From Sinohyriopsis cumingii (taxonomy: Eukaryota; Mollusca; Bivalvia; Unionida; Unionidae): a stretch of 64,000 bases of DNA. Positions within the stretch are counted from its first letter, which is position 1; each line of letters begins with the position of its first letter. Positions 41,779 to 61,112 of this stretch are shown here, piece after piece. A program made the translations under genes and the position numbers. The stretch is from assembly GCA_028554795.2 (NCBI GenBank), contig CM068828.1:21909436-21973435 (forward strand), in the 5' to 3' direction. The notes beneath the pieces were generated by a model, which saw nothing but the letters and a program-made list of their open reading frames with translations, did no database searches and had not been told where the DNA came from.

Positions 41779-41781
41779 ATT

Positions 41782-42508: not shown

Positions 42509-42547
42509 GGTCATTTTCAGGGCCAACCGCTTCTCTCGAAAAGATAG
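42509..42547 (+). terminator. Histone-type 3' stem-loop plus purine element (L2)
   Basis: GGTCAT-TTTC-AGGGCC (42,509-42,524): stem with one G:T wobble and one mismatch and the canonical TTTC loop. AACCGC and then TTCTCTCGAAAAGATAG (42,531-42,547) follow. The purine element is nearly identical to that at 60,724-60,736. Confidence 0.72.
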
Positions 42548-42776
42548 TATTCATTTTGCCAAAATCAATTAAAACTCAAAATTCCTTGTTTGCCCCATGA
42601 TGAATGTGTGTGTGAGTGCGTGAGTGTAGGTCCTTATTCTAAAAAATCAAAACCAAGAGACACTAAATGTTTTCTGTCTGGTCTATTCTGGTACAAATTT
42701 TACAATCCAATTCACAAAGCAACACTTTAAAAAGTTCAAGGACTGTTTCTGTGTCTTTGTTCACTCTCTCTGGTTT

Positions 42777-43325
42777 TTAAAAAAATTCTTTACATTCAAA
42801 GGTTTTTCCTCTTCTTCCTCTCTTTCTCCTCGTTTTCTTTTGTTCTTTTTGCTTCTCAATCTGGACGTATCGGGGTTCCTCCTTTTGTGAGGGTACCTCT
42901 TCTTCCTGTTCGTAACCTCTCTCTTCCTCTTGCTCCTGTTGTTTCGTAGGGCAGTCTAAAGACCAATGTCCTTTCACTTGACAATGATAACAGGTATCTT
43001 GGCCTTTGTCTCTTCTGACACTTGTCTTGCTTTTTTGAGGGCTGGACATTCTGTAGCCCATTGCCCCTTCTTCTGACAGATATGTCAAGTATCTTGACTT
43101 ATATCTCGAAAGGAGGGAGAGTAGTCCGTCCGCTTGTCTGAAGAAATCTTTCGTATGACACCTCGCGAAGTTCTGATCAGATGTTCGATCTGTGTTGGCT
43201 CTCCTATAGTTCTGGAAGGCTTGAGAGTTAAATGAATACTGGAAGGAAAGACGCTGACCCTTTATATAGGGAAGACACTGGCCTGACATTGATATAGGGG
43301 CCCATAGCATTTCAAATGTAGTCAT
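42777..43325 (-). CDS. CCHC zinc-knuckle protein, accessory
   Basis: Intact minus-strand frame of 182 codons from the ATG at 43,325. A zinc knuckle C-X2-C-X4-H-X4-C (CYHCQVKGHWSLDC, about 42,950-42,992) is complete. It is preceded by a Ser/Arg/Tyr-rich part and followed by a long acidic then basic tail (EEEVPSQKEE, RRKRGRRGK). Such knuckles bind single-stranded nucleic acid, as in retroviral nucleocapsids and CNBP-type proteins. A canonical TATA (CCTATATAAAGGG, 43,258-43,270) lies inside the frame, so translation may instead start at the ATG at 43,061. It runs opposite to PolB and shares its upstream region. The absence of stops contrasts with its neighbours. It may be a captured host or retroelement gene. 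Confidence 0.65.
   Translation of the reverse strand: MTTFEMLWAPISMSGQCLPYIKGQRLSFQYSFNSQAFQNYRRANTDRTSDQNFARCHTKDFFRQADGLLSLLSRYKSRYLTYLSEEGAMGYRMSSPQKSKTSVRRDKGQDTCYHCQVKGHWSLDCPTKQQEQEEERGYEQEEEVPSQKEEPRYVQIEKQKEQKKTRRKRGRRGKTFECKEFF
43258..43270 (-). promoter_or_regulatory. TATA box for the zinc-knuckle gene
   Basis: On the minus strand CCTATATAAAGGG, a strong TATA match. It implies a start of transcription near 43,235 and translation from the ATG at 43,061. Confidence 0.5.
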
Positions 43326-43345
43326 TTGACATTTTGCAGCCAAGA

Positions 43346-44935: not shown

Positions 44936-44939
44936 GAGA

Positions 44940-45239
44940 GACCCACTGCGAACTCCAAGTTCAAACCATACCATTTTCCTGTCTTCTTGCCTGACTACTG
45001 TGCTTGCGCCTGTCGATTGATAACGTTTAAAAGATGGCCCACGGTTAGGAAAGAATTGCCTACTTTGACTGATTTAGCTAGAACAGGATTTGTCTACTTG
45101 AGACCTGAGACTGGATTGGGATACGAAAACAATGTTTCATTTGTGGTTTGAAGTTGCGAATGGATCGATGTATCTATAAAGATTCATTCATTATGGAATA
45201 TACTCGATGGTCTCTGCACTGTCCTTACCTTTCTATGGC
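44940..45239 (+). pseudogene. BIR domain 1 (IAP-like), degenerate
   Basis: The reading ITFKRWP (about 45,017), LTDLARTGFVYL (about 45,066-45,101), then after a one-base frame change CFICGLKL (about 45,131) and EYTRWSLHCPYL (about 45,199-45,234) follows the BIR fold in order. The CxxC zinc ligands are present. The His of the usual EHARW is Tyr here, and the final Cys remains. BIR domains inhibit caspases or other cell-death proteins. Not found in copy A. Confidence 0.72.
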
Positions 45240-45379
45240 CCTTACACCCATTACACTACGCTACAGGTATGAGGGTACCTCAGAGTAGGTAGTACCATTG
45301 TCCAGGAGGAAGAAAAAGAAGTATTCCAAAATTAGGCATAAAAAAGGAACGATGTACAAGCTCAAGACTTCATTAAGAC

Positions 45380-45391
45380 TAGTATAAAAAG
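45380..45391 (+). promoter_or_regulatory. TATA box of the BIR gene
   Basis: AGTATAAAAAGTG is followed by GTCCAAGACCGATAGTTC. Copy A keeps this last segment (GTCCAAGACCAACAGTTC at about 1,107) directly after PolB, although it lacks the BIR sequence. Confidence 0.5.
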
Positions 45392-45580
45392 TGACAAAGT
45401 CCAAGACCGATAGTTCATTTTAACTACCATTGCCAAGCGAGAAATTTGAATTCTTTTAAACAGACCACACCATTCAATTTCGGTGATTGTCAAGTGGAGT
45501 GCGATGCTGTACCTTGCGATTACAGGGATGCCGTATGCTGTGACTTCATTGATTCAGTACCACATCATTGGAACTTTGAT

Positions 45581-46495
45581 ATGACTACTACTACTACCAC
45601 TACAGCTACCATGGAAGGTGATGTTGTGCGTGTCAAACCTGACGGATGCGAAAGCGATGTCATTCGTTATTGTGCACTCTTTACTGGTTTTCATGGTCAA
45701 TGTCATCCTCCACGTGAAACTTTGCGGCTACCACCCTACGGATGTCATCCAACACTACGCAAACTTCTGCGGATTTCACCGTACTGTAATCGAAATGAGC
45801 ATGTGAAAGACGAATATTCGTTCCCTGTGCGTTTGCCTGAATCCTGTTACTTTGAAAGTAGATTCCAAACCTTTCCAGGAAAATGGCCTAAATATCTGGG
45901 AGGACCTACCCCCGAAGAATTAGCCAGAGCCAGATTTATCTACTTGGGCGAAAGGGACAAAGACAAGTACTTCAGTTGCGGTTTGTCATTTCATGAGTCT
46001 GAGCATAAGGATTTGGCTTACCTTGAACATGCTCGATGGTCTGCGGTTTGTCACTACCTCCCTTTAGTGGGACGACCTCAGTGGTCTCTGAATGGATACT
46101 TTCCAAGAAAACATTCGTGGTTTGCCTGTGGTGTTGAGAGAACGCATTTACCGAGAGTTTGTCAAAATACAAGAGAAACGCAAAGAACAACTGCATTCGT
46201 TACGTCACAAATGTTGGAACCACTGGTCTTAGTGACTTTCTTTCTGGGATTTAGTTTATCAGCCGATTCCTTGTGGGCTCAAAACATGAAAGTGGTACCT
46301 TTAAATGTCCACGAGAGACTCATTCTGTTAAAAGCCTTGCGCTTTCATCTCGATACTTCTCGATCTCCACGGGGAAAAAGGATTCTTCAACTTTTAGGTA
46401 CTGAAGATGTGTACGACGATGTATATGTAGCTTGTGACTTACACCCTCACTGGACAGATATGCGACTTTTGGGCTTTGGGGATCGGACAAAATAA
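45581..46495 (+). CDS. BIR-domain (IAP-like) protein
   Basis: Open frame of 304 codons from the ATG at 45,581; the frame extends upstream to 45,446 but only with a TTG. The BIR domain spans about 45,855-46,065: FPGKWPKY, PTPEELARARFIYLG, a YFSCGLSF zinc-ligand segment, EHARWSAVC. Of the four ligands, the first Cys is Tyr, while the second Cys, the His and the last Cys remain. A Cys/Tyr-rich N-terminal region has a motif DVIxxYAxFxGFH twice (about 45,655 and 45,741), the second copy in another frame, so compensating shifts are likely. After the domain a helical RERIYREFVKIQEK segment is also out of frame. Viral IAPs block apoptosis of infected cells; that role is inferred. Confidence 0.72.
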   Translation: MTTTTTTTATMEGDVVRVKPDGCESDVIRYCALFTGFHGQCHPPRETLRLPPYGCHPTLRKLLRISPYCNRNEHVKDEYSFPVRLPESCYFESRFQTFPGKWPKYLGGPTPEELARARFIYLGERDKDKYFSCGLSFHESEHKDLAYLEHARWSAVCHYLPLVGRPQWSLNGYFPRKHSWFACGVERTHLPRVCQNTRETQRTTAFVTSQMLEPLVLVTFFLGFSLSADSLWAQNMKVVPLNVHERLILLKALRFHLDTSRSPRGKRILQLLGTEDVYDDVYVACDLHPHWTDMRLLGFGDRTK

Positions 46496-46780
46496 TTGGC
46501 ACACTATGTCAAAGGTGTGTTATTCTGACTTCAAACGTCCAGTGAAACAAGTAATTTTTAAACCTGTTTTAACTGCAGTGTGAGAAAAAGAACCATTCAC
46601 GGAGGAAAACCACTCCATTCAGGATAGGACGGTTATGGACACTATACATTCGTCAAAACAAATGTTGTACAGAGACTTGCTTATATTCTACTTTGATCGT
46701 TGTGATGTGTATTTTATCGCTGTACCTAACCATTTGGCTTTTATATATTTTTATTTTTCGTGTTGTACCATTTTAATTTG

Positions 46781-46812
46781 CAATAAACGTGTCCTGAAAA
46801 GAGTATAAAGAA
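46781..46812 (+). promoter_or_regulatory. Polyadenylation signal followed by ATPase TATA box
   Basis: GCAATAAACG (46,781-46,790) probably ends the BIR transcript. GAGTATAAAGAAAC (from 46,800) is 55 nt before the ATPase ATG at 46,860. Confidence 0.5.
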
Positions 46813-46859
46813 ACTCTAGTCTTGTCTGTCTTTCGTGTTAAAAGTGAAATTCCCTACAC

Positions 46860-47574
46860 TATGGTTACAGCTGATGTCTCTGCTCCCTCTTCCCCTACTT
46901 TCAAAGTCATCGACGAAAACTTAGATCGTACCAGTTGGTAGGCCTTGTATCTTCGCCATCCCTTTAACATCTTAATTGCCGTACCCAGTGGTTCAGGCAA
47001 AACCGATTTTGTTAAAAGTTTGTTCGAACATAAACATCACTTGATCGATCGTCCACCTCAGCATATCGTGTGGTGTTACAAAGAGTGGCAATCGGCTAAC
47101 AGTCTCCTGCGAGAAAACCAAGACGATTCCATCGTGTTTGTGGAAGGCATTCCTGGAGAAGACGACGGGATCGTGTCTGACCCCAGTCAAACCCATCTGG
47201 TCATCTTGGACGACATGTTAGGAGAAGACGAAGAATAAATTAAGCTATGGGCATCATCGAAATGCCAATGTCATTTACATCACTCAAATTCTTTTCCCTC
47301 AGTAAAATAAAGCCTATCGCACCATCAGTCTCAATGCTCGTTACGTGATAGTGTTTAATTTAAAAGCCCTAGAGATAAATAGCAAGTGCAAGTCTTAGCC
47401 AAACAGTTAGGAATGCTATGGCTGACTCATGCGTACGACGATGCCACTAAAATCCTACACGCCACTTTACTCATGAATTTAAAACCCACCACGCCCGATT
47501 ATTTGCGATTTTGTATCCATCTGTTTCACCACTGGTGCCAAGACAGAGAGCCTATTATCTACACGTCCCCGTAG
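46860..47574 (+). pseudogene. Packaging ATPase (A32/FtsK-HerA type)
   Basis: The ATG at 46,860 starts the gene. Walker A is AVPSGSGKT (about 46,978-47,004) and Walker B is HLVILDDM (about 47,195-47,218), both complete. A conserved HRNANVIYITQILFP segment (47,257-47,300, motif III/sensor-type) and a C-terminal part with LKPTTPD and PIIYTSP ending at 47,574 follow. Lesions: one in-frame TAG before the P-loop (about 46,940), a frame change near 47,238, a TAA near 47,304, and a frame change near 47,380. Length is usual for the family (about 230-240 residues). The enzyme would drive DNA packaging into the capsid. Confidence 0.92.
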
Positions 47575-47651
47575 TCGACTTAGCAACAACAACAACAAAA
47601 ATATATGTTAAAAACCCGGACACTTTGGTTCTGTCTTACACAATGTCAACA

Positions 47652-48472
47652 TGACGTCCCTTCAGCTTCATCTTCCCGTCAATTTGATTCGTGCCTTGTA
47701 CGGCATCAGTCGCGAAAAAATCCACAAATACGTGCTCGTGTCTTAGAAGCCAGTCCTTCGATGGTTTACGGTGACAGCACGTCAATTACTACAAGGCATC
47801 ATTCACATCCCAAACCAAACCAAACGCTTTTTTTGAGAAAAAGAAAGAAGCCTTGAAGCAACTGGCCGATCCTCGCATCGACACTCAAACCAAAAAGCAA
47901 ATCATTTTGAAACCTGGATTTAACGGTTCTCTAGGAGGTGTCATCATTCGCTCCCTCTTAAAATGGGATTCCAATGCCCCCAAAGTCCTCCCCAAGAACA
48001 AACCACTCCCAAACGTACCCCGAAGAAGAAAAAGAGCAACGGTGTCAAGACCAGATCACAGGTTCAGAAAAAGAAAAGTCCCCAGACAAAACCGCAGAAA
48101 ACAAGTTCTTTCCGCAAAAGAGCCACTTCGGCAAGGACGCAAGCTTACAGTCGCAAACCACGACCTGCAGCGACGGTGACGGCGTCTCCAGTAGCCTCAG
48201 GTTCTTCCACTTTTCCGTTGCTGGTGATGCCTGCCAAACCCAATTTGACAGCCGTTCTAACTAACTTGATGAAACAATGGAAACCCTTGTCTCCAAGAAC
48301 TCCTCCAGCGGTGACACCCTCTTCCTCTTTAGCTGAAGTGGCAGCTGCTCACAAAGTACTTGCCCCCAAAATAAAAGTCCAAGAGAGATCTGGCTTGTTA
48401 TAGAGTTTGCTGGATTTATCCAAGCAAGAACTGCCCCAATTTAGTCCTTTGCGAACCCTTCATAAAGTGTGA
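47652..48472 (+). pseudogene. PX-like domain plus basic Ala/Pro-rich protein
   Basis: The ATG at 47,652 starts a PX-type domain: NLIRALYGIS, then a KQLADPRIDTQTKKQII segment and GFNGSLGG (47,850-47,945). A single stop (about 47,736) and a frameshift at a T-run (about 47,830) break it. Downstream, two frames share a Lys/Arg/Pro-rich stretch (47,980-48,180) and an Ala/Ser-rich part with AEVAAAHKV (about 48,330-48,360), ending in SKQELPQFSPL (to about 48,470). I cannot tell whether it is one gene or two. A DNA-condensing or internal virion role is inferred from composition. Confidence 0.6.
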
Positions 48473-48542
48473 TGCCTGTCATCAAGTTGATACGACGTAA
48501 AGGCTATCAGTGGCGACGCATTCCAGTATAAAAAAGACACGA

Positions 48543-49930
48543 GGCAAACGATGGGTATAAGTGTTGTTGTTAGTTGGATTAACGTGGTTTTCGTACTCTT
48601 GTACATGTACCACGGATGGGTATAAGTGTTTTTGTGCTCCTGAACGCCCAATGATGCCCCCTCAAAGAAGAGCACACCGTCACCAACGTCGTTCTCCTGT
48701 CGAAGAATGAAAAGGAAAACGAAAGAACAGTCTCGTCGACGGAAGAAAAAAAACGCTTAGCCAACCATCGACGTTACCTCCAGAAAAGACACAGTCGTCC
48801 AAAGAAAAGGAGAAGCCATCAAAGGGGTGGATTTTTTGGCAAAAAGAATATAAAAGGATGCGTGTAAAACCATGGATTTCAGTGTATTTTTGTGTGTGCA
48901 CCTGAACGCCCAAATATGTCCCTCAAGGAAGTGGTGGACACCGTCAACATCTTCATTCTCCTGTGTAGAAAGGAAACAAGAAAAGGACACTCTCGTCATC
49001 CAAAGAAAACGCGTAACTAAGAATCGACGTTTACCCCTGAAAAGACACAGTCGTCCACAGTAAAAGAGGAGAAACCAAAAAAGTGAGGATTTTTTCTTTC
49101 AAACCGTATCAGACAAATAAGATAAAGGACGCATGTCAGAGTCATGGACTTAGGTGCATTTGTATGTATGGGTGTGTGTGTGCGTGTGTGTGCTCCTGAA
49201 CGACCAAAGCTGTCCCCTCAAAGAAGTGCACACCGTCACGATAATCGATCTCATGTTCAAAAAGGAAAAAGAAGAAAGTAAGGACAGTATCGTCATCCGA
49301 AAAAAAACGCTTGTCCAAGCATCGACGTCTACCTCTCATAAGACGCAGTCTTCCAAGGTAAAAGAGGAGCAACCAAAAGGGAGGATTTTTTCTTTCAAAC
49401 CTTATCAGACAAATAAGATAAAAAGACGCTTGTCAAGCCATGGATTTCAGTGCATTTGCATATGTGCATGTGTCCTCCTGAACGCTCAAAGATGTCCACT
49501 CAAAGAAGTGCACACTATCACCATCGTTGTTCTCCTGTCCAAAAAGATAAAGGAAAAAGAAAAGAACAGTCTCGTCATCCGACGAAGCCCTTAGCCATGC
49601 ATCGACGTTTACCCCGGAAAATACGCAGTCTTCCAAAGAAAAAGAGGAGCAAGCAAAGGGGAGGATTCTTTGGCGATTTTGGAAAACAAATCCTCACCTT
49701 TTCGACGAGGCGATAGACCGAGAAAAAAGATACAAGGGCGTGTGCCAAGTCATCGACGTCAGTGTATTTTTAGTGTATACTCCGGAGCCAACAAACAAAC
49801 AAAGATGTCACTCCCTAGAAGATAACCTTCTTCACCCCCTAGGGAAAGAAAAGGAATGGACTACCGTCTCGTTTAGTCAAACATGGGGACATGTTGTCCG
49901 TCCTGTCCAACCTCCGTCACCACCACCATC
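48543..49930 (+). repeat. Tandem array of PX-tail gene units, about 270-310 bp each
   Basis: Units start near 48,606, 48,870, 49,143, 49,438 and 49,750, plus a stub at 48,543. Each has CATGGATTTCAGTG, a GT-rich patch, CTCCTGAACGCCCAAAG, ATGTCCCCTCAAAGAAGTGC, a basic coding part and a Gly-rich GGATTTTTT end. The encoded part reads as an LAxHRRxL, KKxRS, QRGGFF pattern, matching the C-terminal half of the PX core protein. The fourth unit (49,450-49,716) is open for 88 codons and ends RGGFFGDFGKQ; the others have a stop or shift. Copy A has only one unit at this place. Confidence 0.8.
49450..49716 (+). CDS. PX-tail basic peptide, best preserved array unit
   Basis: The frame is open for 88 codons; its likely ATG is at 49,492 in the context AAAGATGTCCACTCAAAG. 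The product of about 74 residues is strongly basic (KKKRSKQR), rich in His/Arg near the start, with a GGFFG segment near the end. GG-containing sites of this kind are typical of adenain substrates, and copy B has an intact adenain-type protease. I infer a protamine-like virion peptide made as a precursor. The evidence is pattern only. Confidence 0.5.
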   Translation: MHLHMCMCPPERSKMSTQRSAHYHHRCSPVQKDKGKRKEQSRHPTKPLAMHRRLPRKIRSLPKKKRSKQRGGFFGDFGKQILTFSTRR

Positions 49931-49970
49931 ACCACCACATTTTGCAGTCTAGACAGACGTAGTCCCAAAG

Positions 49971-50312
49971 ATGTCTGAGGAAGAAGATGTACGAGTAGTC
50001 TTTCAAACACAGTCAGCAGTTCCCATCCCTAGTAAAATTGCAGCGTCCTTGTTGAACCATTCCCCCACCCCTCAACGAGAAGAACTCAGAGCTTGGGTTA
50101 AAATGATGATGTCCACTCCCCCTTTGAAAGAAGTGAAAAAGAAAGAAGGGAAACCAGAAGTGAAAAAGAAAAGACGACCAAAGCCATCCCATTACCACCC
50201 ACCAGTGCCACCACTACCCTCGACTTCAGCTCCCGTGACAGGTCGACATGTAAAGCCGTTTCCAAATTACCATCTCGCCACATCCAAAATAGCATCAGTG
50301 AAGAGTGGGTGA
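49971..50312 (+). CDS. Small basic ORF upstream of integrase
   Basis: ATG at 49,971, 113 codons, intact. An N-terminal helix-forming part is followed by a Lys/Arg block (EVKKKEGKPEVKKKRRPKP) and a Pro/Ser-rich end. Its second half aligns with 3,160-3,400 of copy A, the tail of the LVPHKRW-containing gene, whose N-terminal domain seems to be missing here. It ends 16 bases before the integrase ATG. Function unknown. Confidence 0.55.
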   Translation: MSEEEDVRVVFQTQSAVPIPSKIAASLLNHSPTPQREELRAWVKMMMSTPPLKEVKKKEGKPEVKKKRRPKPSHYHPPVPPLPSTSAPVTGRHVKPFPNYHLATSKIASVKSG

Positions 50313-50327
50313 CTTATTAACAAAAAA

Positions 50328-51317
50328 ATGGAGAATGTGTTAGCCAGCATTTACTACGAACCATCCCATCCTGCAGGTTACGGAGGAGTTTAGAAATTGT
50401 ATCATGCTGCCAAAACCCGTCTGAAAAGTGTCCGTTTATCTCAAGTGCAACGATGGTTAAAATAACAAGCCACGAAGTCGCACCTGAGTGGAAGGCACCG
50501 ATCATCAATCACAAGCCGATTTAGCCGATGTCTCTCATTTGGTCACTTACAATCGTGGCTACACATATTTGTTCTTTTATCATCGACGTCTTTTCCAAAT
50601 TTGCCCGTGTCGTGCCATTGACTTCCAAATCGAGCAGTGAGTTGGTGCAAGTCCTCATACTGGTGTTGAAACAAAGTGGTCGTCACCCTCTTCGACGACA
50701 AAACGACAAAGGCCCCGAATTTCTGAACCACGCTTTCTAAAAAGAATTGAAGAAACGTGACATTCATGTTTTCACCACCGAGAATCCCGAAACCAAAGCC
50801 AACATCGTGGAACGTTTTCAACGCATCTTAAAAGAACACATGTTGAAATATTTTACTCTTCAATACACTCTTAAGTACATTGACGTCTTACCGGACTGGT
50901 CCAAGCGTACAACCAATCTTACCATCGAAGCATCGAATGTGCCTCCCAAGAAGTAACCCACGACAACGAAGTGACTATTTTTGGCAAAACAAAACACACT
51001 TTCAACAGAGGTTACTTATACAATTGGACCACTGAGTTGTTTCGTGTCATACGACAAGTGCGTGGCCGTCATCCTGCGGTCTATAAATTGGAAGACATGA
51101 ACGAGGAAGTTTTAAAGGAACGTTTTCCTTGACCGAGTTACAACGCGTGACCAACAAAGAAGAGGAAGTATACGACATCGAAAGCATTCTCGATCGAAGA
51201 ACCCGAAAAGTGGGAAAACGACTTGTCAAAGAAGTCAAAGTACGTTCGCAAGGATATCCTCCCACTTTTGACTCTTGGATCAACGCTTTGCAAGTCATGG
51301 ACTATAAAATGAAGTGA
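50328..51317 (+). pseudogene. Chromo-integrase (rve type), broken but catalytic motifs readable
   Basis: ATG at 50,328. N-terminal SHPAGYGGV (about 50,363), rve core with DLADVSHLVTYNRG (about 50,519), IIDVFSKFARVVPLTSKS (about 50,580-50,633), NDKGPEF carrying the second Asp (50,705-50,725), and NIVERFQR with the catalytic Glu (about 50,801-50,824). A C-terminal part with a chromodomain-like VYDIESILDRR...GYPPTFDSW (51,170-51,282) ends in MDYKMK at 51,317. All three acidic positions can be read, but stops and frame changes (near 50,390, 50,460, 50,560, 50,740 and 50,955-51,130) prevent one polypeptide. Confidence 0.92.
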
Positions 51318-51323
51318 CTATCA

Positions 51324-51735
51324 TGACCTTCAAACACAGCCTTAACCACTACCACCACAGTGATCACTCCTTTCCCGAGTTTTGTCTGTACAAGATCTAC
51401 AAAAACAACCACTTTGGGTGTGGTGTGGAGAACGTGTGCCTAAAACGCAAATCGTCATTTTCTGCCAGATCTTTGTGGTGTATTGTGTCATCAGCTCTGC
51501 CATTGACAATTAGAGTTTCCAACAAGGAGACGAACAATTGTGGACCATTTTACTGAGCTTTAGCATCGGTTAATTTCTTCCCAATCCGTCCCTGAAATAC
51601 TCTTCTAGCGGAAACAACTAGAGTCTTGCGTCCAACGTCAGTCCCGCTCCCAACGGTCACCACCAAAACAACAATCCTCTTTCAGACACTCCACTGACCT
51701 TCAGTGACCCCTCGGACAGCAGGACTCTAGAGTTA
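51324..51735 (+). pseudogene. Unidentified ORF between integrase and penton
   Basis: Counterpart of 4,517-4,910 in copy A: TATA-like CTATAAAATG overlapping the integrase end, ATG at 51,324, then about 75 codons before a stop at 51,556. Homologous sequence continues in other frames. Conserved between copies, family unknown. Confidence 0.42.
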
Positions 51736-52658
51736 TGAACAACAACAACTAATTTTAGTTAACGTTACCAAGTGACAGTTCCATGGAGGTGTTTCCCACA
51801 AACATGTTATGCTGTTACACGGCCAAATTACCTCAGGCCATCCAATTAGTTCACGAATCCCATAGGGAAGTGGCTTTTGGTGGAAATGATTCACCCTACA
51901 CATATTCAAAACATCACTGAAACGCAAAACCGTTCCATGTCGAAATCCTGAACGACCAATTGCAACAAGAGATGAGTAATATGAACTTTTCAGGTGACAT
52001 AAATCCAGCAAAAAACAATCCATTAGTCAGCATCTACACTGTGAACATTTCGTCAGGCTATTACTTTAGCGGTCAACATTTGGTGGACACAGTTGCTGGC
52101 AGGTTCGAGGAAGCGTTTGGCAAAGTCCTGCCGAGAGACAAAAAAGTGTTAAGATTGAGTACGATAAAGTGTCTCGTCGCCTAATGATGAAATTTCAGGA
52201 TACGGAAACGTTGGCTATTACCTTTTAAATGGTAGTTTGTTTTAAAGTTTGGGTGGATCTCCACAGATGATACCACAGAATCGGATCCTGATGATCAACA
52301 GCAACATGGATGTTTGCAGGGCTTTCGGATCCCCTATAGAACTGAACAAAGGATTCTATTTGATTTTTGTGTACTCCGATGTGGTGGAGTACAACGTGGT
52401 GGGACACACCTCCGTACGGCAACTGCGTGTCATTCCTTTGAAAGTGGATTCTACCACGGTCACTGACGAGGAAGGTGGAAACACCTTTCACGTTCACCGA
52501 AACTTTGTACATCCTCACTATTTGGCCGTCGGTAAGTCATATTTCGGCACTGTCAACATTGCTATAAATTGAGATCCGGGACAAAATATTCCATCCTCCA
52601 AATGGAAAGTCAAGGTAAAACTCCATTTTCGAAACCGGTTCTCTAACGAGTTGTAAGT
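51736..52658 (+). pseudogene. Penton-like minor capsid protein, broken
   Basis: Starts at the ATG at 51,736 with an LTLPSDSSMEVFP pattern. Frame changes break the first third. 51,960-52,184 is open and contains the GQHLVDTVAGRF segment shared with copy A. 52,249-52,572 is open and holds the C-terminal region: LIFVYSDVVEYNVVGHTSV, LRVIPLKVDS and FVHPHYLAVGKSYFGTVNI. Ends near 52,658. In Polintons this protein is taken as the vertex capsomer, next to pVI-like and MCP genes as here. Confidence 0.75.
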
Positions 52659-52669
52659 CATTTATCCAG

Positions 52670-53115
52670 TGTACCTAGGAGTCGCTCGATAGCGAGGACA
52701 TAGATTAGGAGATATGTTGAAATCGGCCTTTCTTTCGGTGGCCCCCGTTTTGAAACCGATGATGACACGAGGATACCAGGCATTGAAAGACACCGCATTT
52801 GAAGCACAGCAAAGAATTTCTCCAAAATGTCATCATCGACAAACAAGCCCCCAAAGAAGCTTTCCTGAGAGCAGGCAAAGTGTCTTGCTTCAAACGGGCA
52901 AAGAGATTTTGTTCCGTCGAGAAACTCCTATAAATGCCCTGGACTCTGCTGAGTCAGGCATTCCTGCTTCCCTGACGTCACAGCAAGGACAAGGCAGAAA
53001 GAGACAACGAAGACACCTCTCCAGACGACTTCACACCTCCAGTACTAGAAAAACCAAGAAAAGAAGAACCGTCAGAGACTTAGACATTTTTGATTATTAC
53101 AGAGAGAAAAAATAG
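52670..53115 (+). pseudogene. pVI-like basic capsid-associated protein
   Basis: One TAG (about 52,690) lies in the Gly/Arg-rich start. From the ATG at 52,714 the frame is open for 133 codons: a hydrophobic amphipathic helix (LSVAPVLKPM), a middle part that seems frameshifted relative to copy A, then a Lys/Arg-rich tail (RKRQRR, TKKRRTVRDL) ending YYREKK. Position between penton and MCP and composition fit the pVI-like protein of Polintons. A membrane-lytic or DNA-bridging role is inferred. Confidence 0.62.
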
Positions 53116-53117
53116 AA

Positions 53118-54453
53118 AATGATGCACCGAGAGTTTGCGCCTGTTCCAAGTCGGAACTGGATCTCTTTGCCATGCCACCCACCATGATGACGATGCAAGA
53201 AACCCAATGGCTAGAGTTTTATCCCGTCTCCTCTTTGACGGATTCAGCTCCAATTGAGTTTAAAATCAAAGGACAGCCCGAAGATTACATCGATCTGAAT
53301 AGCAGTTTCTTGTACCTAAAAGTCTAAGTGAAAAAAGCGGCGGACAACACCAATCCGAGAGACAATGACAGGATAGTTTCCGTCAACAATTTCTTGCATT
53401 CCTTGTCCAGCATTGTAGATTTATACTTGAATAACAAACTAGTCAGCAGCAGCATGGATACTTACCCTTACCGAGCCAACCAGTACAATCTCTTGATGTG
53501 CGGAAAAGAGGCAAGGAACACTGATCTGGATGCTTGTTTGGTATGGAAACCAGACCCAGCGTGTGAGAACACGTTTAACGACACAACAAACGCGCTAGAA
53601 GACGACAATATTCACAATGCCAGATATATCGCTCGCCGAGAGAAAATCAAGAAAGGACGTTGTTTAGAACTGATGGATCGCTTGCATTTGGACTTGTGGT
53701 TACAAGAGAAGTATTTGCTTAACGAAGTGAATGTCCGCCTGAGACTGAATCGCAGCAGTGCCACATTCCATTTAATGGTTGCAGGTGATATCATTTACAA
53801 AACGGTCATCCAAGAAGCCAAATTTTACGTGCGATGCGTGGAAGTGATGCTTATAGTGGGAAACCACATCAATCACATTTTGAGCAGAACGTGCGCCAAG
53901 TAATCGATACGCCGCCTGGAAGTGAAAACTTTCGCCATTCCCGCTGGACATCAATCCATGATCGAAGATTATCTGTTCCAAGGACAGTTACCCAATCGTT
54001 TAGTCATTGGCATCGTCAAGAATTCAGCCTGCAATGGATCCTACAAAGAATATCCTTTCGAGTTTAAACGTTACAAAGTGATCAAGATCGAAGTCAGTCG
54101 TATTTAAAAACCTCGTGCACTAGACCCTTCGAACCTATGTTTGGTGGTAACGAGAAGAATTACTTGAAAACGTACTTGTCCCTGTAGAAGCTACCGGACA
54201 GTTAGGGACCAACACCAGTCACGGAAGTACATTTGAGGATTATGCAGGAGGCTACACATTGTGGGGTTTGGTTTCAAGCCAGACCAAGGCAGCGACGAGG
54301 GACATTTCAACCCTTTAATATTCGGCCAACTTCGTGTAGAAATTCAAATTGCAAACCCACCTCCAGACCACACAGTGAACATCATCTTGTATGCCTAAGT
54401 TCATAATATGATAGCAATCAACAGTTTGAAAAGAAGTCATCCTAGACTATTAG
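53118..54453 (+). pseudogene. Major capsid protein (double jelly-roll), lightly broken
   Basis: The best-preserved MCP of the window. Start near 53,118, with PPTMMTMQETQWLEFYPVSS (about 53,175-53,235). An IEFKIKGQPEDYIDLNSSFL segment, then TAA at 53,325, then 191 open codons (53,328-53,903) including FLHSLSSIVDLYL, TYPYRANQYNLL, LELMDRLHLDLWLQ and VNVRLRLNRSSATFHLM. Next come a TAA at 53,901, KTFAIPAGHQSMIEDYLFQG, a TAA at about 54,105, frame changes, and an HTVNIILYA segment near the end at 54,453. It would form pseudo-hexameric capsomers. Few lesions suggest recent inactivation. Confidence 0.92.
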
Positions 54454-54458
54454 AAGCT

Positions 54459-54930
54459 ATGGAAGACACGTATCCCTCTTTGAATGATGAAGAAACTATG
54501 GAAATGGAATGGGAAGCAGAAATGTAATGGAGAGCAGAATACAAAGACAAAGACGAAGAGGTCATATTGATGAGGTCCAAATGGCCAGAACAAGAACAAA
54601 ATTTAGTCTCCTGTTTTGCCAAACACCTGACAGAAAAAGTTATGGAATTGATCAAGGAAGATTGCTATGGATATCAAAACAATCATCCCAGTCAAATTGA
54701 ACACGATAAATGTCTGATGATGAGTCAAGAAGAAAAATTGGACGAGTATCTGGAGGACGCTTGGGGTCTCCTCTCAGAAGAAAGCATTGTTGCCTCAATG
54801 GTATAAAGACTTGCGTGATCATTCCTCTCCTCCATTGATTGTTCTATAGATCCATCACATCGGAGCTCTCTTGGTTCAGAGTATTGAGAAGAAGCGAAGA
54901 AACAGTTACTTTTCAGAGATTCTTTAGCAG
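54459..54930 (+). pseudogene. Small acidic Polinton gene between MCP and protease
   Basis: ATG at 54,459. One in-frame TAA (54,525-54,527), then the same frame continues to 54,806 with CFAKHLTEKVMELIKEDCYG, HPSQIEHDKCLMMSQEE and LDEYLEDAWGLLSEES. Homologous-looking sequence (WYKDLRDH) continues in another frame to about 54,930. Rich in Glu, with a Cys/His cluster. It recalls an uncharacterised conserved Polinton protein. In copy A only its first codons remain. Function unknown. Confidence 0.55.
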
Positions 54931-55002
54931 AAATTCAGGATTGAATTGATGACCTGTCATTACTCTGAAAAAAAAACCCAAGAAAAAATAACAGAACAAA
55001 AG

Positions 55003-55500
55003 ATGGATACCTGGGAACTTTATTACCTTTTGAACAACAATTCGTACACCACTACTTGGAATCCTGTCGTGTATGCTAAAGATGAACTGCCTCATCGCAA
55101 ACCTCAAGGCCACCAAGCCTACGTCATCAACACGGGCGATAGTCATCTCCCAGGAACCCACTGGGTAGCCTTCTTCTTCCCTAAAGAGGGATGCGTGGAA
55201 ACATTTGATTCGTATTCGTTTGGATTAACACCTTTTGGAAGACGACATCATAGCTTTATGAGAAGAAATGTCCAGACCACACGATTCAATATTGTGAAAT
55301 TACAAGGCACATATTCCATGGTGTGTGGACAATATGGTGTGTATTTTCGTTATCGACGCAGTCTTGGATATCATTTAGAACATGTATTCATTCATCTTGA
55401 TCGTGACTCTTCTAGAAACGTTGAAAAAGTAGAGCGATGGTTTTGTGACCAGTATGGCTACTTTTTGTCTTTAGATAGGAAACGTAGTATGTGTCAGTGA
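55003..55500 (+). CDS. Adenain-type cysteine protease, apparently intact
   Basis: Uninterrupted frame. The ATG at 55,003 (MDTWELYYLL) gives 165 residues; the upstream ATG at 54,949 would give 183. The catalytic set of the adenovirus protease family is present in order: His in GTHWVAF (about 55,156-55,176), an acidic residue in ETFDSYSFG (about 55,198-55,224), Gln in LQGTYS (about 55,300-55,317) and Cys in CGQYGVYF (about 55,324-55,347). Length is slightly below adenain (about 200). It would mature capsid precursors. Two AATAAA signals follow (55,505 and 55,601). It is the only core gene of either copy without a lesion. Confidence 0.93.
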   Translation: MDTWELYYLLNNNSYTTTWNPVVYAKDELPHRKPQGHQAYVINTGDSHLPGTHWVAFFFPKEGCVETFDSYSFGLTPFGRRHHSFMRRNVQTTRFNIVKLQGTYSMVCGQYGVYFRYRRSLGYHLEHVFIHLDRDSSRNVEKVERWFCDQYGYFLSLDRKRSMCQ

Positions 55501-55503
55501 CCC

Positions 55504-55607
55504 AATAAATTCCATTCGTGGAAGTCTAACTTCACTTCACAATGTTGTCAACCTTGTCAAAAATAATTTGATTGTTTTATTGTTTATTGTTTGTTGTTTG
55601 AATAAAA
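55504..55607 (+). promoter_or_regulatory. Polyadenylation signals after the protease
   Basis: CCAATAAATTCC (about 55,502) and GAATAAAAAATG (about 55,600). Copy A keeps the second (GAATAAAAATG, about 7,745). No histone-type stem-loop is present here, unlike at the accessory genes. Confidence 0.5.
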
Positions 55608-55639
55608 AATGTTGTAATTTGAAAAAATAGTGTTGCAAA

Positions 55640-58506
55640 ATTTTAAAGTATGTACTATGACCAACACCTCTCATGGAATCATCACATCACCGAATTACTA
55701 GGAAAATGTAACGGAGACCTTAATCTCCTGAAAAACATCAAAGGTTTACAATAGGGTGCAGACCAAAACACATTGTTAACACTCTAAAGGGCCTTAATTA
55801 GATCCAAACTGGATTATGGATGTCAGATATATGCATCTGCCAAACCATCAAGTCTTAAATACCTTGACATAATCCAAGCAAAAGCTCTACAGGCACACTC
55901 CAAAATACCTATAAAGAAGAAATACAGATCCTAACAGGCGAAACATCTTTATTATTAAGAAGAGAAGAATTAACATTAAGATATGCAGCTAGAAGTTCCA
56001 TACTCAACCTCAGCCATCCCACAAGGGACATCATTAATAAACGCAACAACCCATTTAGCCGGAGACTTCTCCCTCATCCACCATCTAGGAAAAAGATCCA
56101 CTCGTTATGTAAAGAACTACAACTCGACTGCCTTCGTGCAGAATCAACACGATATCCAGACCCTACATCATTGACAAGGAAAAAACCTAATATCAACACC
56201 ATAGCAATAACTTTCGGATCCATAGAAGAACAACCATTAGAAATAAGATCAAAGATCCTGACTATATTAGGAATTCGTCAAAATATACACAGATGAATCA
56301 AAATCGAACAACCCGGACAGAACTGCTGCAGCACTCACTATCCCGGAATAGAATAAGGAAATAGGAAGCAGACTCCCGGATAATTGTTCAATATACACAG
56401 CAGATTTCTGGGCTATACTTGAAGCAGTGAAGACAGCATACCAACAGAAATTCCAGAAAACACTAATACTAAGCAACTCACTGATAGGGCTAAAATCCTT
56501 GGAAACAGGCAAACAAAGGGGCGTGAAAACCTCATAAAAGAAACAAACTTGCTACTTAACAAAATGGAAAACAAGACCAAATTGTAGAATTCATGTAGGT
56601 CCCGTCGCATATAAACATCCCAGGTAACGACAAGGCCGACCTTGTAGCAAAGAACGCACTAAGCGAACCAGAATCGGCCCACATCGATTACAGCGTGCCA
56701 GAATTATACAGCATGATATCCAAAAAATGGCCTCTAAATGGCAAACCCATTGGGATATATTCCCCAAAGGACGTACGCTGTACTCGATACAAAAATCAGT
56801 GCGTCACAAAACCAAAACACCAAAAACCAATATCAAAGACCATCAACGGATCATTAACCGAATTAATACAGGAAAAACCCTACTTGTAAGTAATATGGGG
56901 AAACATGTCCTGGCTAATTGTGGAAATGGAGCAAAATGCCCAACTGCGTTGATGATGAAGATCTCCCGCACGTTTTTAACATATGCCCGAGATATGACAA
57001 ACAAAGGACAAAACTTAACCACCATGTCAAAGAAAATTGGCTCATCATATACCTACCCCGAACTACTTTATCAATCTAATCCCAACCCCAATCAAATAAA
57101 TAATGCCATATTGATCTTCCTCAAGGAGATTGACAAAGTCGACAAGACATAACCCAACCAATTATATTCAGACCGGCTTGACATCTCATAAATCCTATAT
57201 ATAATTACAATTAGCCACTTACTCAAGCCAATCATCCATCCACTAGTTTCATGCATTGAAACATGTGGGGAAGTGGATGCGGAGGTAGTATACGGTTTAC
57301 CGCCCAAGTAGGGTCTTGTACCGCGAAACGTGGGCTGATGCTGTACCTGCACCCATCACCCACTACGGCACCCTGAGTGGTTATACAGGTAATGCAGTTT
57401 AGTGACAGATTCAGAAGTAGGACATAGCCCAATACCCAGTTATACAATATCTGATTACTACATCACCGGACAACCTTCTTGGAGTGACTGAGTGGGAAAT
57501 TAGGGACGGGGTTAGCATACGGTTTACCGCCCAAGTAGGGGTGTGTTCCTCGAAATGCGGGCAGATGCTGCACCTGGACCTATCACCCACTTAGCACCCT
57601 GAGTCGTCCAAATGTATAATCAATTAAGCAATGCAAAAGGTGATCGGTAATTAATTTAACCATCAATATTCATACTAACAACTATCTATTCTATCCTACA
57701 ACTTTAGGCATGATGAATCGTCTAAAATACACGAATTAAAACTGGCCAATAAACCTATATATTATAAGGTGGCTTAAATCCCAGCCATCAAGGCCAGCTG
57801 CACAATGCGGCAACGAATCGATTTATAAACTTGTTAGAAATTAAAGTAAGAACCCAAAATTAGACCTATAAGGTAGCTAATAACCCAGAACCATCAGGAC
57901 CAGCTACACAATGTGGCACCAAATTTGCATAAGTAGGAAATATGTCCTAAATATTTAGAACTATAATGTGACTACACCACAGTCATCAGTCCCCCCACCG
58001 CACAAGGCGGAAACACTAATTATTAGAATAGAAACCCAAAATATTATTCGATTAAACGAATTTCCCCTAAATAGACTGGGATATTCATCATGTCATCTCT
58101 ATCTTATTCTACAAACAGCACAAATGATTTTCCAAATTACAAATACGGCAAAAAGACGCCATTTACTATTAAGAAAATGGAGAAAAAGAAAACAAAAAAC
58201 AAAAAAGAACGATCCTGGATGTAGGGCGCATCCCTTCCTCGGGGTCCGATATACCTTTTCCAGACATGTACCATATAAGTGAGTGCGTATGGGCCATTCC
58301 CACTCACCATGTGTCCCGTGAGACATCAATGTCTCGAAATCGGACTAATCAAATAGCACTTCTTAAGTGCATTAATGCGTTGGGGGAAGTGGCACTATTC
58401 TTTCCCCCTCGTAAACATCAAATAGCCCCAAACGGGGCACTAACTAGTCGTAAATGCCCATATGGGCGCAAAACGACTCTAATTAAAATGACTGACTGAC
58501 TGACCA
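55640..58506 (+). mobile_element. 5'-truncated non-LTR retrotransposon (LINE with RNase H)
   Basis: Absent at the same place in copy A, so it inserted into copy B. It starts inside the C-terminal part of the reverse transcriptase (ALIRSKLDYGCQIY, about 55,795-55,836). An RNase H domain follows (KIYTDESKSN near 56,279; YTADFWAILEAVKTAY at about 56,393-56,440; an HVGPV and NDKADLVAKNAL-like end near 56,596-56,660), then a C-terminal domain to 57,152. Frames are broken by many stops. The 3' end is an ACTGACTGACTG-type tail (58,488-58,502). RNase H points to the I superclade (I, Nimb, Ingi, R1/LOA and relatives). Clade assignment needs a tree. Confidence 0.85.
57260..57610. repeat. Duplicated block in the LINE 3' region
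   Basis: 57,267-57,373 and 57,490-57,606 share TATACGGTTTACCGCCCAAG, GGGC(T/A)GATGCTG and CACCC...CACCCTGAG. They are two copies of a roughly 110-bp block spaced by about 225 bp, within the 3' untranslated part of the LINE. Confidence 0.75.
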
Positions 58507-58543
58507 GTCTGACCATCCATTGTTGACTCGTCAAGCTGTGAAA

Positions 58544-58903
58544 ATGCCTTCTAATTTAGCTAAACTAAACGAAGCCTACTTGCATTTGCACCCTGTGAGG
58601 CAAAGCCTGATACCTAAGTCGGAAGAGATAGAGAATGTCAGGGTGCTGAAGGTGGCAGAAGACCTGATAGAAGAGGTTTTCAGAGAGGAAATCAAGAAAG
58701 ATAAAGAAGAATGGACGGAGAAGTACAGACTTCAGAAGCAGAGAGAGCAGCACCAACAGTAGCAGCAACAACAGCAGGAACCAGACAGATGTTTTGTCGA
58801 CTGCCGTGTGGACAGGAAAGAGTTCTCATTCTCTTTCCGAAGAAGTAGACCCTATTCTGTGGGAAAGCCTGCCGCCAGACGGGGAGGCAGTCTTAGACGA
58901 TAA
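58544..58903 (+). pseudogene. R1, conserved small Polinton gene, one nonsense codon
   Basis: ATG at 58,544. 119 codons are conserved with copy A: LAKLNEAYLHLHPVRQSLIP start, DLIEEVFREEIKKD and WTEKYRLQ coiled segment, a Gln run, then a C-terminal FVDCRV, EFSFSFRRSRPYSVG and RRGGSLRR end. The only lesion is TAG at 58,760-58,762 in the Gln run; the frame then continues to the true stop TAA at 58,901-58,903. The LINE ends about 38 bases upstream and removed the TATA box seen in copy A. A histone-type stem-loop starts 31 nt after the stop. Family unknown. The basic RRGGSLRR tail suggests nucleic acid or protein contact. Confidence 0.68.
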
Positions 58904-58933
58904 AAGATTGCTATAATCCCCGTCCACAAAATC

Positions 58934-58971
58934 AGCCCCTTTCAAGGCTACCCAATTCTCTAGAAAAGAGA
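58934..58971 (+). terminator. Histone-type 3' stem-loop plus purine element (R1)
   Basis: AGCCCC-TTTC-AAGGCT (58,934-58,949): four outer pairs intact, two inner mismatches, canonical TTTC loop and an ACCCA flank. TCTCTAGAAAAGAGA (58,957-58,971) follows. Confidence 0.7.
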
Positions 58972-59031
58972 TACTAGTAAGATGCCAAAACACTTGCAAT
59001 TGTGTTTGTACGTTAAAAAATAGAACTGTGT

Positions 59032-59045
59032 CTATAAGCACTTCG
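59032..59045 (+). promoter_or_regulatory. TATA box of R2
   Basis: CTATAAGCACTTCG, matching 8,434-8,448 of copy A. Confidence 0.5.
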
Positions 59046-59160
59046 TTTACCTAGCTTGTCAAATAGTCTATGTGTTTGTGTCTGTAAATGCTAAGTTTGT
59101 AAGTAAAACAATTAGTGTTTCGCGTTCGTCAGTCTAGCTACCCAACGGTGAGGTATCAAC

Positions 59161-59732
59161 GTTGAGAAGATTAGCAGAATTGCCAAACTCTTAGAGCTTC
59201 AGATGCACTTGGAGTATGCCAGGCGCATTCTTGATGAGCTGGCTATGGAGGCCATAGCCGAAGCTGCCAGACTTGAAGAAGAGGATGAAGAGGAGAAAGG
59301 AAGGAAGAGGAGAAGGAAACGAAGAAAGGGATCCTGCCTCACCTCATGCTGAGACTTTTGTGTGAGGTCAAGCCTGAGGTGAGAGCACATTAACGACCAG
59401 TAGCAGCACCACAACCAGTAGCAGCACCAAAACCACTACCAGCACCACAGCAACGTAAACAATAGCCACAACAACAACCGCAACTACTACTACCAATACA
59501 AGTACCAGAGATAAGTAGACTTCATAATCCCCGATTGCAAAATAGAAGACAGAGGGAAGTCTTCACTATCCCACAAAGTGAAGACTGGGATGATGAAGCC
59601 GCTCAATCCGCCTTTGCGCACCCAGGAACAAATGTAAATTGGGAGCAGGACTGGAGTACAAGATGTATCTGTGGTGCCCGGCCTGGGAGGTGCCAGCATT
59701 TAGCTGGTGCAACTGAAGTTCTAAAAAACTAG
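59161..59732 (+). pseudogene. R2, accessory gene with acidic/basic coil
   Basis: The first segment (59,161-59,352) reads a helical LELQMHLEYARRILDELAME part, then an acidic EEEDEEEK run and a basic RKRRRKRRKG run, ending in TGA. A low-complexity Thr/Gln/Asn-type CAACAC repeat follows. A second open segment (59,535-59,732) has QREVFTIPQSEDWDDEAAQ and a Cys-rich end; its stop TAG coincides with the first bases of the stem-loop at 59,731. Frameshifts join or separate these parts. No family recognised. Confidence 0.5.
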
Positions 59733-59768
59733 CCCTTCTTAGGGCTACCCAGATCTCTAGAAAAGAGA
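59731..59768 (+). terminator. Histone-type 3' stem-loop plus purine element (R2), perfect stem
   Basis: AGCCCT-TCTT-AGGGCT (59,731-59,746): six perfect pairs, loop TCTT which fits the UHUH loop rule, ACCCA flank as in histone genes, then TCTCTAGAAAAGAGA (59,754-59,768). Confidence 0.82.
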
Positions 59769-59810
59769 CTGTTCAAGTTGCCAATTGGTATGAGTGTGGA
59801 GTAGTTTGAG

Positions 59811-60260
59811 TATAAACATTCACTCATTTCCTGATGTGATTATATGTGAGTGTGTGTTTGTGTGCTTGTATGCGTTCGCGTACGTTTGTGTGTATTTGTG
59901 TTGTGTTTGTATGCTTGCACGTACGTTGTGTGGATAGTATATTCTGGGGTTTGTATGCGTGCTTGGACGTTGTGTGGATAGAATATTTTGGTTTTCTTTC
60001 CTCTTCCCGTATGTGAATAGTGGACTTTGGGGTTTGTATTTTGCACCTTCCCGTGCGTGGATGATAGATAATGTTTTTTTTCCCCTATTCCAGTGTGTGG
60101 ACAGTAGATTTTGGGGTTTGTTGTTTGCTCCTTCCCGTCTGTGGATAATGGATAGTTGATAGTGGGTTTGTTTTTCCTCTTTCCGTGTGTGGATAGTAGA
60201 TAATATGTGAAGGTATTGTAAAAGATGATTTCCTTCAAGTTCGTATTTCAAGTATATAAA
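59811..60260 (+). promoter_or_regulatory. Promoter region of R3 with GT-rich repeats
   Basis: GTATAAACATTCAC at 59,810 matches the spacing pattern after other stem-loops. About 370 bp of degenerate repeats follow (59,840-60,220; units with GTGTGTGGATAGTAGATAAT and CTTTGGGGTTTGT). A strong TATA (AGTATATAAAGC, 60,251-60,262) lies 47 nt before the R3 ATG at 60,309. The GT-rich segment corresponds to the larger variable repeat of copy A. Confidence 0.5.
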
Positions 60261-60308
60261 GCATAGGTTTCACTGGTCACGCTATACAACATTGAATGAT
60301 CAAAGAAG

Positions 60309-60690
60309 ATGACTTTGAACCAGATTGACGTGATGAAGACCTTGCAAGAGGATATAGACGAATTTGAAATCGTGGAGGAATTCATCATGAAATTAGAGTA
60401 TTTTGTCTATGCTATTCACAGAGTCAAGATGGAGACAAACAATGTAAACAAGACGAAGGAGAGATTGAGAGAGCTGCTGCAAAAAAGTAAAGGAGGATGA
60501 AGAAGACAGAATAAGAGTGAGAGAGTGGAATGAAAAACTTAAAAAAGAAGAAGAGAACGAAAAAAGAATAAAGAGGAGGAGGAGGTGGAGGAGGAGGAGA
60601 AACAAGAGAAAGAGAACAAGAAGAAGAAAATAAAGAAGAAAATAGGAAAGAAAATAAATGTTGGTGGAGGAAAAGAAGATATTAGAAGAA
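60309..60690 (+). pseudogene. R3, charged coiled-coil accessory gene
   Basis: ATG at 60,309 opens 63 codons (MTLNQIDVMKTLQEDIDEFE start, then NKTKERLRELLQKSK) to a TGA at 60,498. A frame change at an A-run (about 60,484) leads on into a Lys/Glu/Arg-rich stretch to about 60,690. Coiled-coil with strong charge, like L2 and the start of R2. Followed by the perfect stem-loop at 60,699. Function unknown. Confidence 0.55.
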
Positions 60691-60698
60691 AAACCAAG

Positions 60699-60736
60699 GG
60701 CCCTTTTCAGGGCCACTCATATGTCTCGAAAAGATA
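60699..60736 (+). terminator. Histone-type 3' stem-loop plus purine element (R3), full consensus
   Basis: GGCCCT-TTTC-AGGGCC (60,699-60,714) fits the metazoan histone stem-loop consensus GGYYYU-UHUH-ARRRCC at every position. It is preceded by CCAAG and followed by ACTCA. TCTCGAAAAGATA lies at 60,724-60,736, about 10 nt after the stem, within the usual distance of a histone downstream element. Confidence 0.88.
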
Positions 60737-60971
60737 TGTTCTCTTGCATAAATCTATGTATGTGTCCTATGTCTGTGTTCCACCAGTTCCGCCCCGCCAA
60801 GCGTTATTATTCGTATAGTTCAGGAACTAGTTGAACTGACCCGACACCCGCTACCCGCTTTTTCCCCCGCTGTCACTGTTTGCTGTTTGGTCCGATTGAG
60901 GTCAGCCCCTTGCAACATTCTTGCCAATTTCCAGTACCATGACGCCACCTAACCTGTTCCATTCGTATTAA

Positions 60972-61106
60972 CCCTATTAAAAATCCCTACCTTTTCTTGT
61001 CCTTATATAGGCCCAACCTCTTGTCCGTATAAATCTTATCCGTAAACGTTTTCAAGGGTCTTGTAATGGTAATTCGCATTGTCCGTAAAGTGCCCCCTTC
61101 ACTACT
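60972..61106. repeat. Right terminal inverted repeat of Polinton copy B
   Basis: Inverse of 41,096-41,230. Subrepeats CTTGTCCTTA (60,996), CTTGTCCGTA (61,020), CTTATCCGTA (61,035) and ATTGTCCGTA (61,078) lie 101, 77, 62 and 19 bases from the end, the same spacing as at the left. Further right-end sequence (60,785-60,970) is shared with copy A but not with the left end. Confidence 0.92.
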
Positions 61107-61112
61107 TACACG
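61107..61112. repeat. Right target-site duplication of Polinton copy B
   Basis: TACACG, identical to 41,090-41,095. Confidence 0.88.

Follow-up and report, generated by a model that had tools for sequence, protein, structure and literature searches.

Histone-type stem-loop and box signals behind the accessory genes of a Polinton-type element in Sinohyriopsis cumingii

Results

A Polinton-type element with accessory genes near both ends

The stretch of Sinohyriopsis cumingii DNA analysed here (64,000 nucleotides, hereafter the window) holds a complete Polinton-type element and, to its left, a partial and broken copy of it (Table 1). Polinton/Maverick elements are marked by terminal inverted repeats (TIRs), a 6-bp target-site duplication and a length of about 15-20 kb, and the right copy showed all three. 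Its 20-kb size, TIRs and 6-bp duplication are shared with Polintons/Mavericks and adintoviruses (Preplasmiviricota). Fragments resembling four proteins typical of such elements were also seen, namely protein-primed DNA polymerase B (DNA_pol_B_2, E 0.0061), rve integrase (rve, 1.4e-4), A32-type packaging ATPase (Pox_A32, 6.9e-4) and adenain (Peptidase_C5, 0.02). All four scored below the Pfam cut-offs, probably because their reading frames are broken, and no protein relatives of a DNA polymerase fragment were found. The ORF at 53328-53903, which had no relevant Pfam match, is a candidate double jelly-roll capsid protein.

Several further features were seen inside the element and around it. An ORF of 304 aa (45581-46495) encoded a BIR (inhibitor of apoptosis) domain with a score over the cut-off (E 2.3e-11), and a CCHC zinc knuckle ORF lay on the minus strand (42777-43325) between gene A and the polymerase fragments. 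Positions 48633-49674 consisted of about four tandem copies of a unit of about 280 nt, 73-79% alike, with repeated ORF pieces. The segment 55570-58506 (about 2.9 kb) had no match in the left copy, where positions 7696 and 7918 correspond to 55569 and 58507 of the right copy. Since its ORFs look like a retroelement RNase H region, the segment is probably a nested insertion. Long tandem arrays with units of 30, 43, 26, 38 and 42 nt occupied 16321-17550, 18267-20300, 28893-31300, 33657-34485 and 35199-35866, respectively, between the two element copies (right limits approximate).

Table 1. Positions of the element copies, accessory genes and 3'-end signals in the window
Feature	Position	Strand	Remarks
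Complete Polinton-type element, 20,011 bp	41096..61106	+	TIRs and flanking TACACG duplication
Left TIR	41096..41230	+	137 aligned columns, 89.8% to reversed 60972-61106
Right TIR	60972..61106	-	
Target-site duplication TACACG, left	41090..41095		
Target-site duplication TACACG, right	61107..61112		
Left element copy, partial and broken	318..9936	+	by blastn to right element; its left part lies beyond the window
Adenain-like protease ORF	54949..55500	+	Peptidase_C5 E 0.02 (below cut-off); relatives at 70-73%; AATAAA 3 nt past stop
Remnant of 3' part of accessory gene A'	about 41425..41560	-	by-eye comparison with relative L105
Accessory gene A	41862..42478	+	broken here; stop 30 nt before stem; intact in relatives, e.g. 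196 aa in L108
Gene A stem-loop	42509..42524	+	one pair broken; R2 34.9 bits, RF00032 12.2 bits
Gene A GAAAAGA box	42538..42544	+	
Accessory gene B, right copy	58544..58903	+	one in-frame stop; protein homologues exist
Gene B stem-loop, right copy	58934..58949	+	two loop-side pairs broken; R2 37.1 bits; no Rfam match
Gene B GAAAAGA box, right copy	58963..58969	+	
Accessory gene C region, frame broken	59152..59732	+	by blastn to relatives
Gene C stem-loop	59731..59746	+	intact, first pair A-U; RF00032 24.3 bits, below cut-off
Gene C GAAAAGA box	59760..59766	+	
Accessory gene D region, frame broken	60309..60683	+	TATATAAA at 60253-60260
Gene D stem-loop GGCCCT-TTTC-AGGGCC	60699..60714	+	intact 6 bp, loop TTTC; RF00032 35.1 bits
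Gene D GAAAAGA box (HDE-like)	60728..60734	+	29 nt from stem start, spacing as in host histone genes
Gene B, left copy	7955..8293	+	one in-frame stop
Gene B stem-loop, left partial copy	8330..8345	+	closing pair broken; R2 27.1 bits; no Rfam Histone3 match
Gene B GAAAAGA box, left copy	8361..8367	+	31 nt from stem start

Accessory genes A' and A were located at the left end of the element, with A' adjoining A on the minus strand and pointing outward to the left end, and genes B, C and D at the right end. Gene B had eight homologues in public sequence sets (73-80% identity), seven of them 112-126 aa long and one of 86 aa; one of the longer seven (P0005) deviated at its C-terminus. Between the two window copies of gene B, dN/dS was 0.16 (NG86) or 0.34 (YN00) over 106 codons, and the differences by codon position numbered 22, 12 and 38. 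Stop-free ORFs of the A, A' and D types were read directly in relatives. We conclude that the accessory genes are real. Pfam detected no histone domain in the accessory ORFs scanned and pointed to no credible function for their proteins; matches of accessory proteins to LEF-11 (E 0.0044) and POP1_N (E 0.0032) were below the cut-off and were taken as noise.

Contigs of 1-8.5 kb from public sequence sets carried relatives of adenain and gene B with 70-80% identity (P0001-P0011), so that the element has close relatives elsewhere. One of them (P0009) had no match in phage or plasmid records. In one relative within the same genome (L103, G000:C4:100898607-100901652), an internal deletion seems to join adenain in-frame to an ORF of the gene D type, which ends 23 nt before a stem-loop.

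A stem-loop and a GAAAAGA box follow the accessory genes

The Rfam family RF00032 (Histone3) describes the 3' UTR stem-loop of replication-dependent histone genes together with the histone downstream element (HDE); its hallmarks are a 6-bp stem whose second pair is G-C and a 4-nt loop with U in the first and third places. The original prediction had pointed to such a stem-loop at 60,699, GGCCCT-TTTC-AGGGCC, and to a GAAAAGA element downstream of it; both were present behind gene D, but the gap between them was 13 nt rather than the predicted 10. Four further copies had been placed at 8,330, 42,509, 58,934 and 59,731, and all were found there on the plus strand, each with its GAAAAGA. The right copy thus has four of the stem-loops, at the ends of genes A, B, C and D, and the left copy has the fifth, behind its gene B. 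No R2 match was obtained for a gene A' stem-loop in the window copy.

The box began 29 nt from the stem start at four of the five sites and 31 nt from it at 8,330. All five copies carried U1 and U3 in the loop, the A after the loop and a G-C second pair, the last also found in 72 of 73 distinct relatives. The full 6-bp stem was retained in two copies, and damage in the other three was confined to the two pairs nearest the loop, which fits decay of the element copies.

Both strands of the 64-kb window were searched with 4227 Rfam families. The interval 60,694-60,739 matched RF00032 at 35.1 bits (E 1.9e-6), over the gathering cut-off of 34 bits, and 59,726-59,770 matched at 24.3 bits (E 0.021). 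Searches of small regions gave 12.2 bits (E 2.5) for 42,504-42,550 and no Histone3 match at 8,330 or at 58,934, so that one of the five window sites passed the cut-off. A covariance model built from only the two best window copies, 60,699 and 59,731 (model R2), recovered the other three at 37.1, 34.9 and 27.1 bits, with the next best place in the window at 15.3.

The single parts of the signal were not rare in the window. The stem-loop consensus with at most one mismatch occurred 8 times against 3.55 expected (8 was reached in 3 of 100 shuffles), and GAAAAGA occurred 29 times against 13.2 expected. The combined stem-loop and box pattern, which was defined post hoc, was found four times (59,731 was missed) and in none of 200 first-order simulations; the recurrence was not due to chance. 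The ends of genes A-D were alike only over about 48 nt around the stem-loop, where mean pairwise identity was 0.66, compared with 0.26 at random places (largest of 5000 draws, 0.41). Taken by themselves, the five window copies gave a weak pairing test, their covariation score being reached by 46 of 500 shuffles.

The signal recurs with the element across the genome

The assembly of the same genome (2.90 Gb) contained 589,472 RF00032 candidates; 75 of them were scored and all exceeded the cut-off (34.5-45.6 bits), which makes 75 a lower bound. Element sequence was detected within 1.5 kb of each of these 75 scored loci (30/30, 17/17 and 28/28; blastn E 1e-4 or better). It does not follow that such signals are confined to the element, since the ranking by score favours intact copies, and the 60,699 site and the host histone ends were over the cut-off yet not among the 75. 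At one locus (L141) the blastn match covered the terminal-repeat region only, and at some of the 75 it covered a neighbouring gene rather than the one bearing the stem-loop.

In the first two of these groups (30 + 17, together 47 loci), R2 identified 93 stem-loops, of which 46 were independent of the choice of loci. All were classed by blastn of the 450 nt upstream: 27 belonged to class A, 30 to A', 16 to C and 20 to D. None was of class B in these loci, which extend only 1.5 kb either side, and the gene B stem-loop was known only from the two damaged window copies. The expectations that a covariance model would rise above background and that relatives of the element would bear the signal at their accessory ORF ends were both borne out.

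A search with the stem-loop pattern across 84,980 bacterial and archaeal species, each represented by a single genome, yielded 68 stretches, which we took as chance occurrences. Together with three IMG/VR contigs that had the stem-loop pattern, these stretches formed a control set of 71 loci (528 kb), all picked for a chance stem-loop, in which R2 had no match at E<=0.01. The fetched stretches of the three IMG/VR contigs contained no RF00032 match over the cut-off, and nothing among the IMG/VR viral contigs was related to the element by protein or by the stem-loop-plus-box pattern. RF00032 exceeded its cut-off in none of 14 control genomes and gave any match in one (Lactococcus lactis).

The cassette is conserved in pairing, spacing and place

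The core read GGCCCTTTTCAGGGCC in 65 of the 93 stem-loops and AGCCCTTTTCAGGGCT in 11 of them, and both the TTTC loop and the ACCCA flank were near-invariant. The first stem pair was G-C in 73, A-U in 15 and other in 5. The box read exactly GAAAAGA in 79 of the 93, and its core was located at 29 nt in 89 and at 30 nt in 2, the AAAAG core being absent in the remaining 2. The distance from stop to stem was determined for the 76 stem-loops that had an ORF of 50 residues or more, the stop included (17 of the 93 were left out), and was 19-27 nt in class A (n=24), 7-24 in A' (n=27), 25-36 in C (n=7) and 15-66 in D (n=18, 14 of them at 15-30). It fell within 15-35 nt in 69 of the 76.

Mean pairwise identity in the stem window was 0.95-0.98 in all four classes, with flank minima of 0.43-0.61. 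In classes D and A', the stem stood at 0.97-0.98 and the flanks dropped to 0.43-0.45. Two flank parts were as conserved as the stem, namely -80 to -20 in class A (0.95-0.98) and +60 to +80 in class C (0.96). The 93 copies reduced to 73 distinct rows, in which 97.5% of pair cells were standard; on these rows, none of 500 shuffles reached the observed pairing on three measures including the covariation score, the alignment being fitted to the model. Two-sided change occurred at one pair only, the first (A-U/G-C), a number matched by 497 of 500 shuffles.

Host histone genes end in the same way

PF00125 gave 662 candidate places; of the 150 that were scored, most belonged to an approximately 8.3-kb tandem repeat present on C14 and on numerous small contigs. 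In one such repeat (L150), R2 matched five places only at E<=1 (53.2-32.3 bits), and RF00032 agreed on all of them with scores of 35.0-39.4 bits, over its cut-off. These were the ends of H3, H4, H2B, H2A and H1. Pfam assigned a core histone domain to three of the ORFs (one with an H2A C-terminus) and a linker histone domain to H1, and the H4 ORF matched only CENP-T_C; H3, H4 and H2B were named by the look of their sequences. The stems of the five genes began 28, 27, 34, 35 and 38 nt after the stop, and the boxes 29, 29, 29, 30 and 30 nt from the stem start. The box was GAAAAGA in four genes and GAAAAGG in H2A; CTAGAAAAGA was found in H1, H2B, H3 and H4. AATAAA occurred within 150 nt at H4 among the five ends. 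Residence of the elements in the host histone cluster was also considered and rejected, as the histone genes were found in the tandem repeat elsewhere.

Poly(A) signals and the core genes

AATAAA was present within 150 nt downstream of 10 of the 93 element stem-loops against 18.9 expected (sd 3.3) and was thus depleted; AATAAA or ATTAAA was present at 20, against 32.4 expected. In the window, AATAAA followed left gene B at 8,419 and ATTAAA followed gene A at 42,568, and neither occurred within 200 nt of right-copy genes B, C and D.

R2 had no match in the core region of the window and nothing above 13.7 bits in three 9.9-kb core stretches from three relatives. Two of these relatives (L119, 5405; L120, 6346) had AATAAA 7 and 12 nt past a conserved core ORF that begins MSVPGKNG, which makes it a candidate poly(A) site of the ordinary kind for core genes. 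Most core ORFs listed in the three relatives had neither AATAAA nor ATTAAA within 250 nt.

Discussion

The original observation was confirmed and proved stronger than first seen. The sequences directly establish the presence, position, spacing and conservation of the signal, one compensatory pair, its likeness to host histone ends, and its absence from the core regions examined. The element's ends agree with the RF00032 ends of host H1, H2A, H2B, H3 and H4 in stem and loop, in the 3' flank, in the box and its spacing, and in their place after the stop; unlike histone genes, the genes in front of them are non-histone by Pfam and reside in a mobile virus-like element. As parts, order and spacing are those of host histone ends, the most economical interpretation is that the element uses the histone pathway. 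Judged from sequence, it is very probable that in this element lineage the non-histone accessory genes rely on the 3'-end pathway of host histones, and that the stem-loops and boxes are true replication-dependent-histone processing signals. The earlier proposal of histone-type processing of accessory mRNAs is hence supported.

During processing of known histone messages, the stem-loop is recognised by SLBP and U7 snRNA base-pairs with the downstream element; cleavage leaves an mRNA that is not polyadenylated, and active machinery is found in S phase (PMC9756948, PMC5011920). Histone mRNAs of a bivalve are described as having the stem-loop close to the stop and purine-rich elements in some genes only (PMC6210712). 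Each of the short accessory genes has its own stop followed, mostly after 15-35 nt, by a 6-bp stem with a 4-nt loop, 13 nt and a GAAAAGA-type box. By analogy, host SLBP would bind the stem-loop, the U7 snRNP would pair with the box, and CPSF73 would cut between the two. The resulting mRNA would stop behind the stem-loop and lack poly(A). It would mostly be produced, and be stable, during S phase, at a time when the element's own DNA could be replicated, which may be of benefit to the element. We lean, at somewhat better than even chances, towards a split of expression in which the core replication and virion genes have other, ordinary ends and the accessory genes near the two ends of the element make up a regulon of S phase run through the host histone 3'-end machinery.

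Other explanations were weighed against pathway use. That a GC hairpin merely happened to lie near A-rich sequence has a negligible chance of being right: the single parts are not rare in the window, but the Rfam E-value, the genome-wide recurrence, the likeness to host histone ends and the absence of matches from all 71 control loci speak against it. A captured histone end or a duplicated terminator might also have been carried along and kept by descent without function. The copies are indeed relatives, parts of the class A and C flanks match the conservation of the stem, and the cassettes of A, A' and D versus that of C seem to be two subtypes that differ in their first pair (G-C or A-U), which makes copying among the genes likely. 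Nevertheless, the cassette is the sole common part of otherwise unlike gene ends, it remains beside stop codons with its spacing fixed in 91 of 93, its first pair shows A-U/G-C compensation, and the stems of classes D and A' are held while their flanks drift, so that we regard functionless descent as highly improbable. We would give equally little credit to the view that the stem-loops, instead of ending their own mRNAs, mainly bind and titrate host SLBP or U7 factors or bring the element to histone locus bodies, a role that can coexist with processing. Each element has several signals, at least 75 genomic sites exceed the cut-off, and the best of the element stem-loops outscore the host's five on RF00032 (up to 45.6 versus 35.0-39.4 bits); yet placement directly after stops in the mRNA sense is a requirement of processing, and a decoy needs neither stop nor box.

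A further alternative is that use of the signal is confined to S phase, with the majority of transcripts ending at ordinary poly(A) sites further downstream, as in some histone genes. A human H2A gene uses both end types (PMC9756948), and poly(A) signals do occur near host H4, left gene B, window gene A and a minority of the 93 stem-loops (10 with AATAAA, 20 with either hexamer). Both counts are below expectation, however, and the right-copy genes B, C and D lack such signals within 200 nt; dual ends therefore seem unlikely as the main mode. Our confidences in the several explanations sum to more than one because dual ends and decoy action overlap with histone-type processing, which we prefer.

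Non-polyadenylated stem-loop ends are treated as a mark of replication-dependent histone messages. Among the open-licence papers listed, titles and abstract beginnings contained no description of histone-type 3' ends in Polintons and none of viral use of the histone stem-loop signal, and the text of PMC11071296, on animal viruses including adintoviruses, is without the terms 'stem-loop', 'polyadenyl' and 'SLBP'. The adomavirus 'Histoid' genes described in the same paper likewise link small DNA viruses to histones; there the protein is histone-like, whereas in this element the mRNA end alone is.

If pathway use is true, the histone 3'-end pathway is open to takeover, with the same signal placed on several unrelated non-histone genes and in dozens of genomic copies. 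Histone-type ends would be a simple way to couple viral gene expression to host DNA replication. If the split of expression is also true, accessory messages would be timed, exported, translated and destroyed like histone ones, perhaps at histone locus bodies, and would escape poly(A)-based control. Given pathway use, RNA-seq with poly(A) selection would miss the accessory transcripts of such elements, which may partly account for why Polinton activity is rarely seen.
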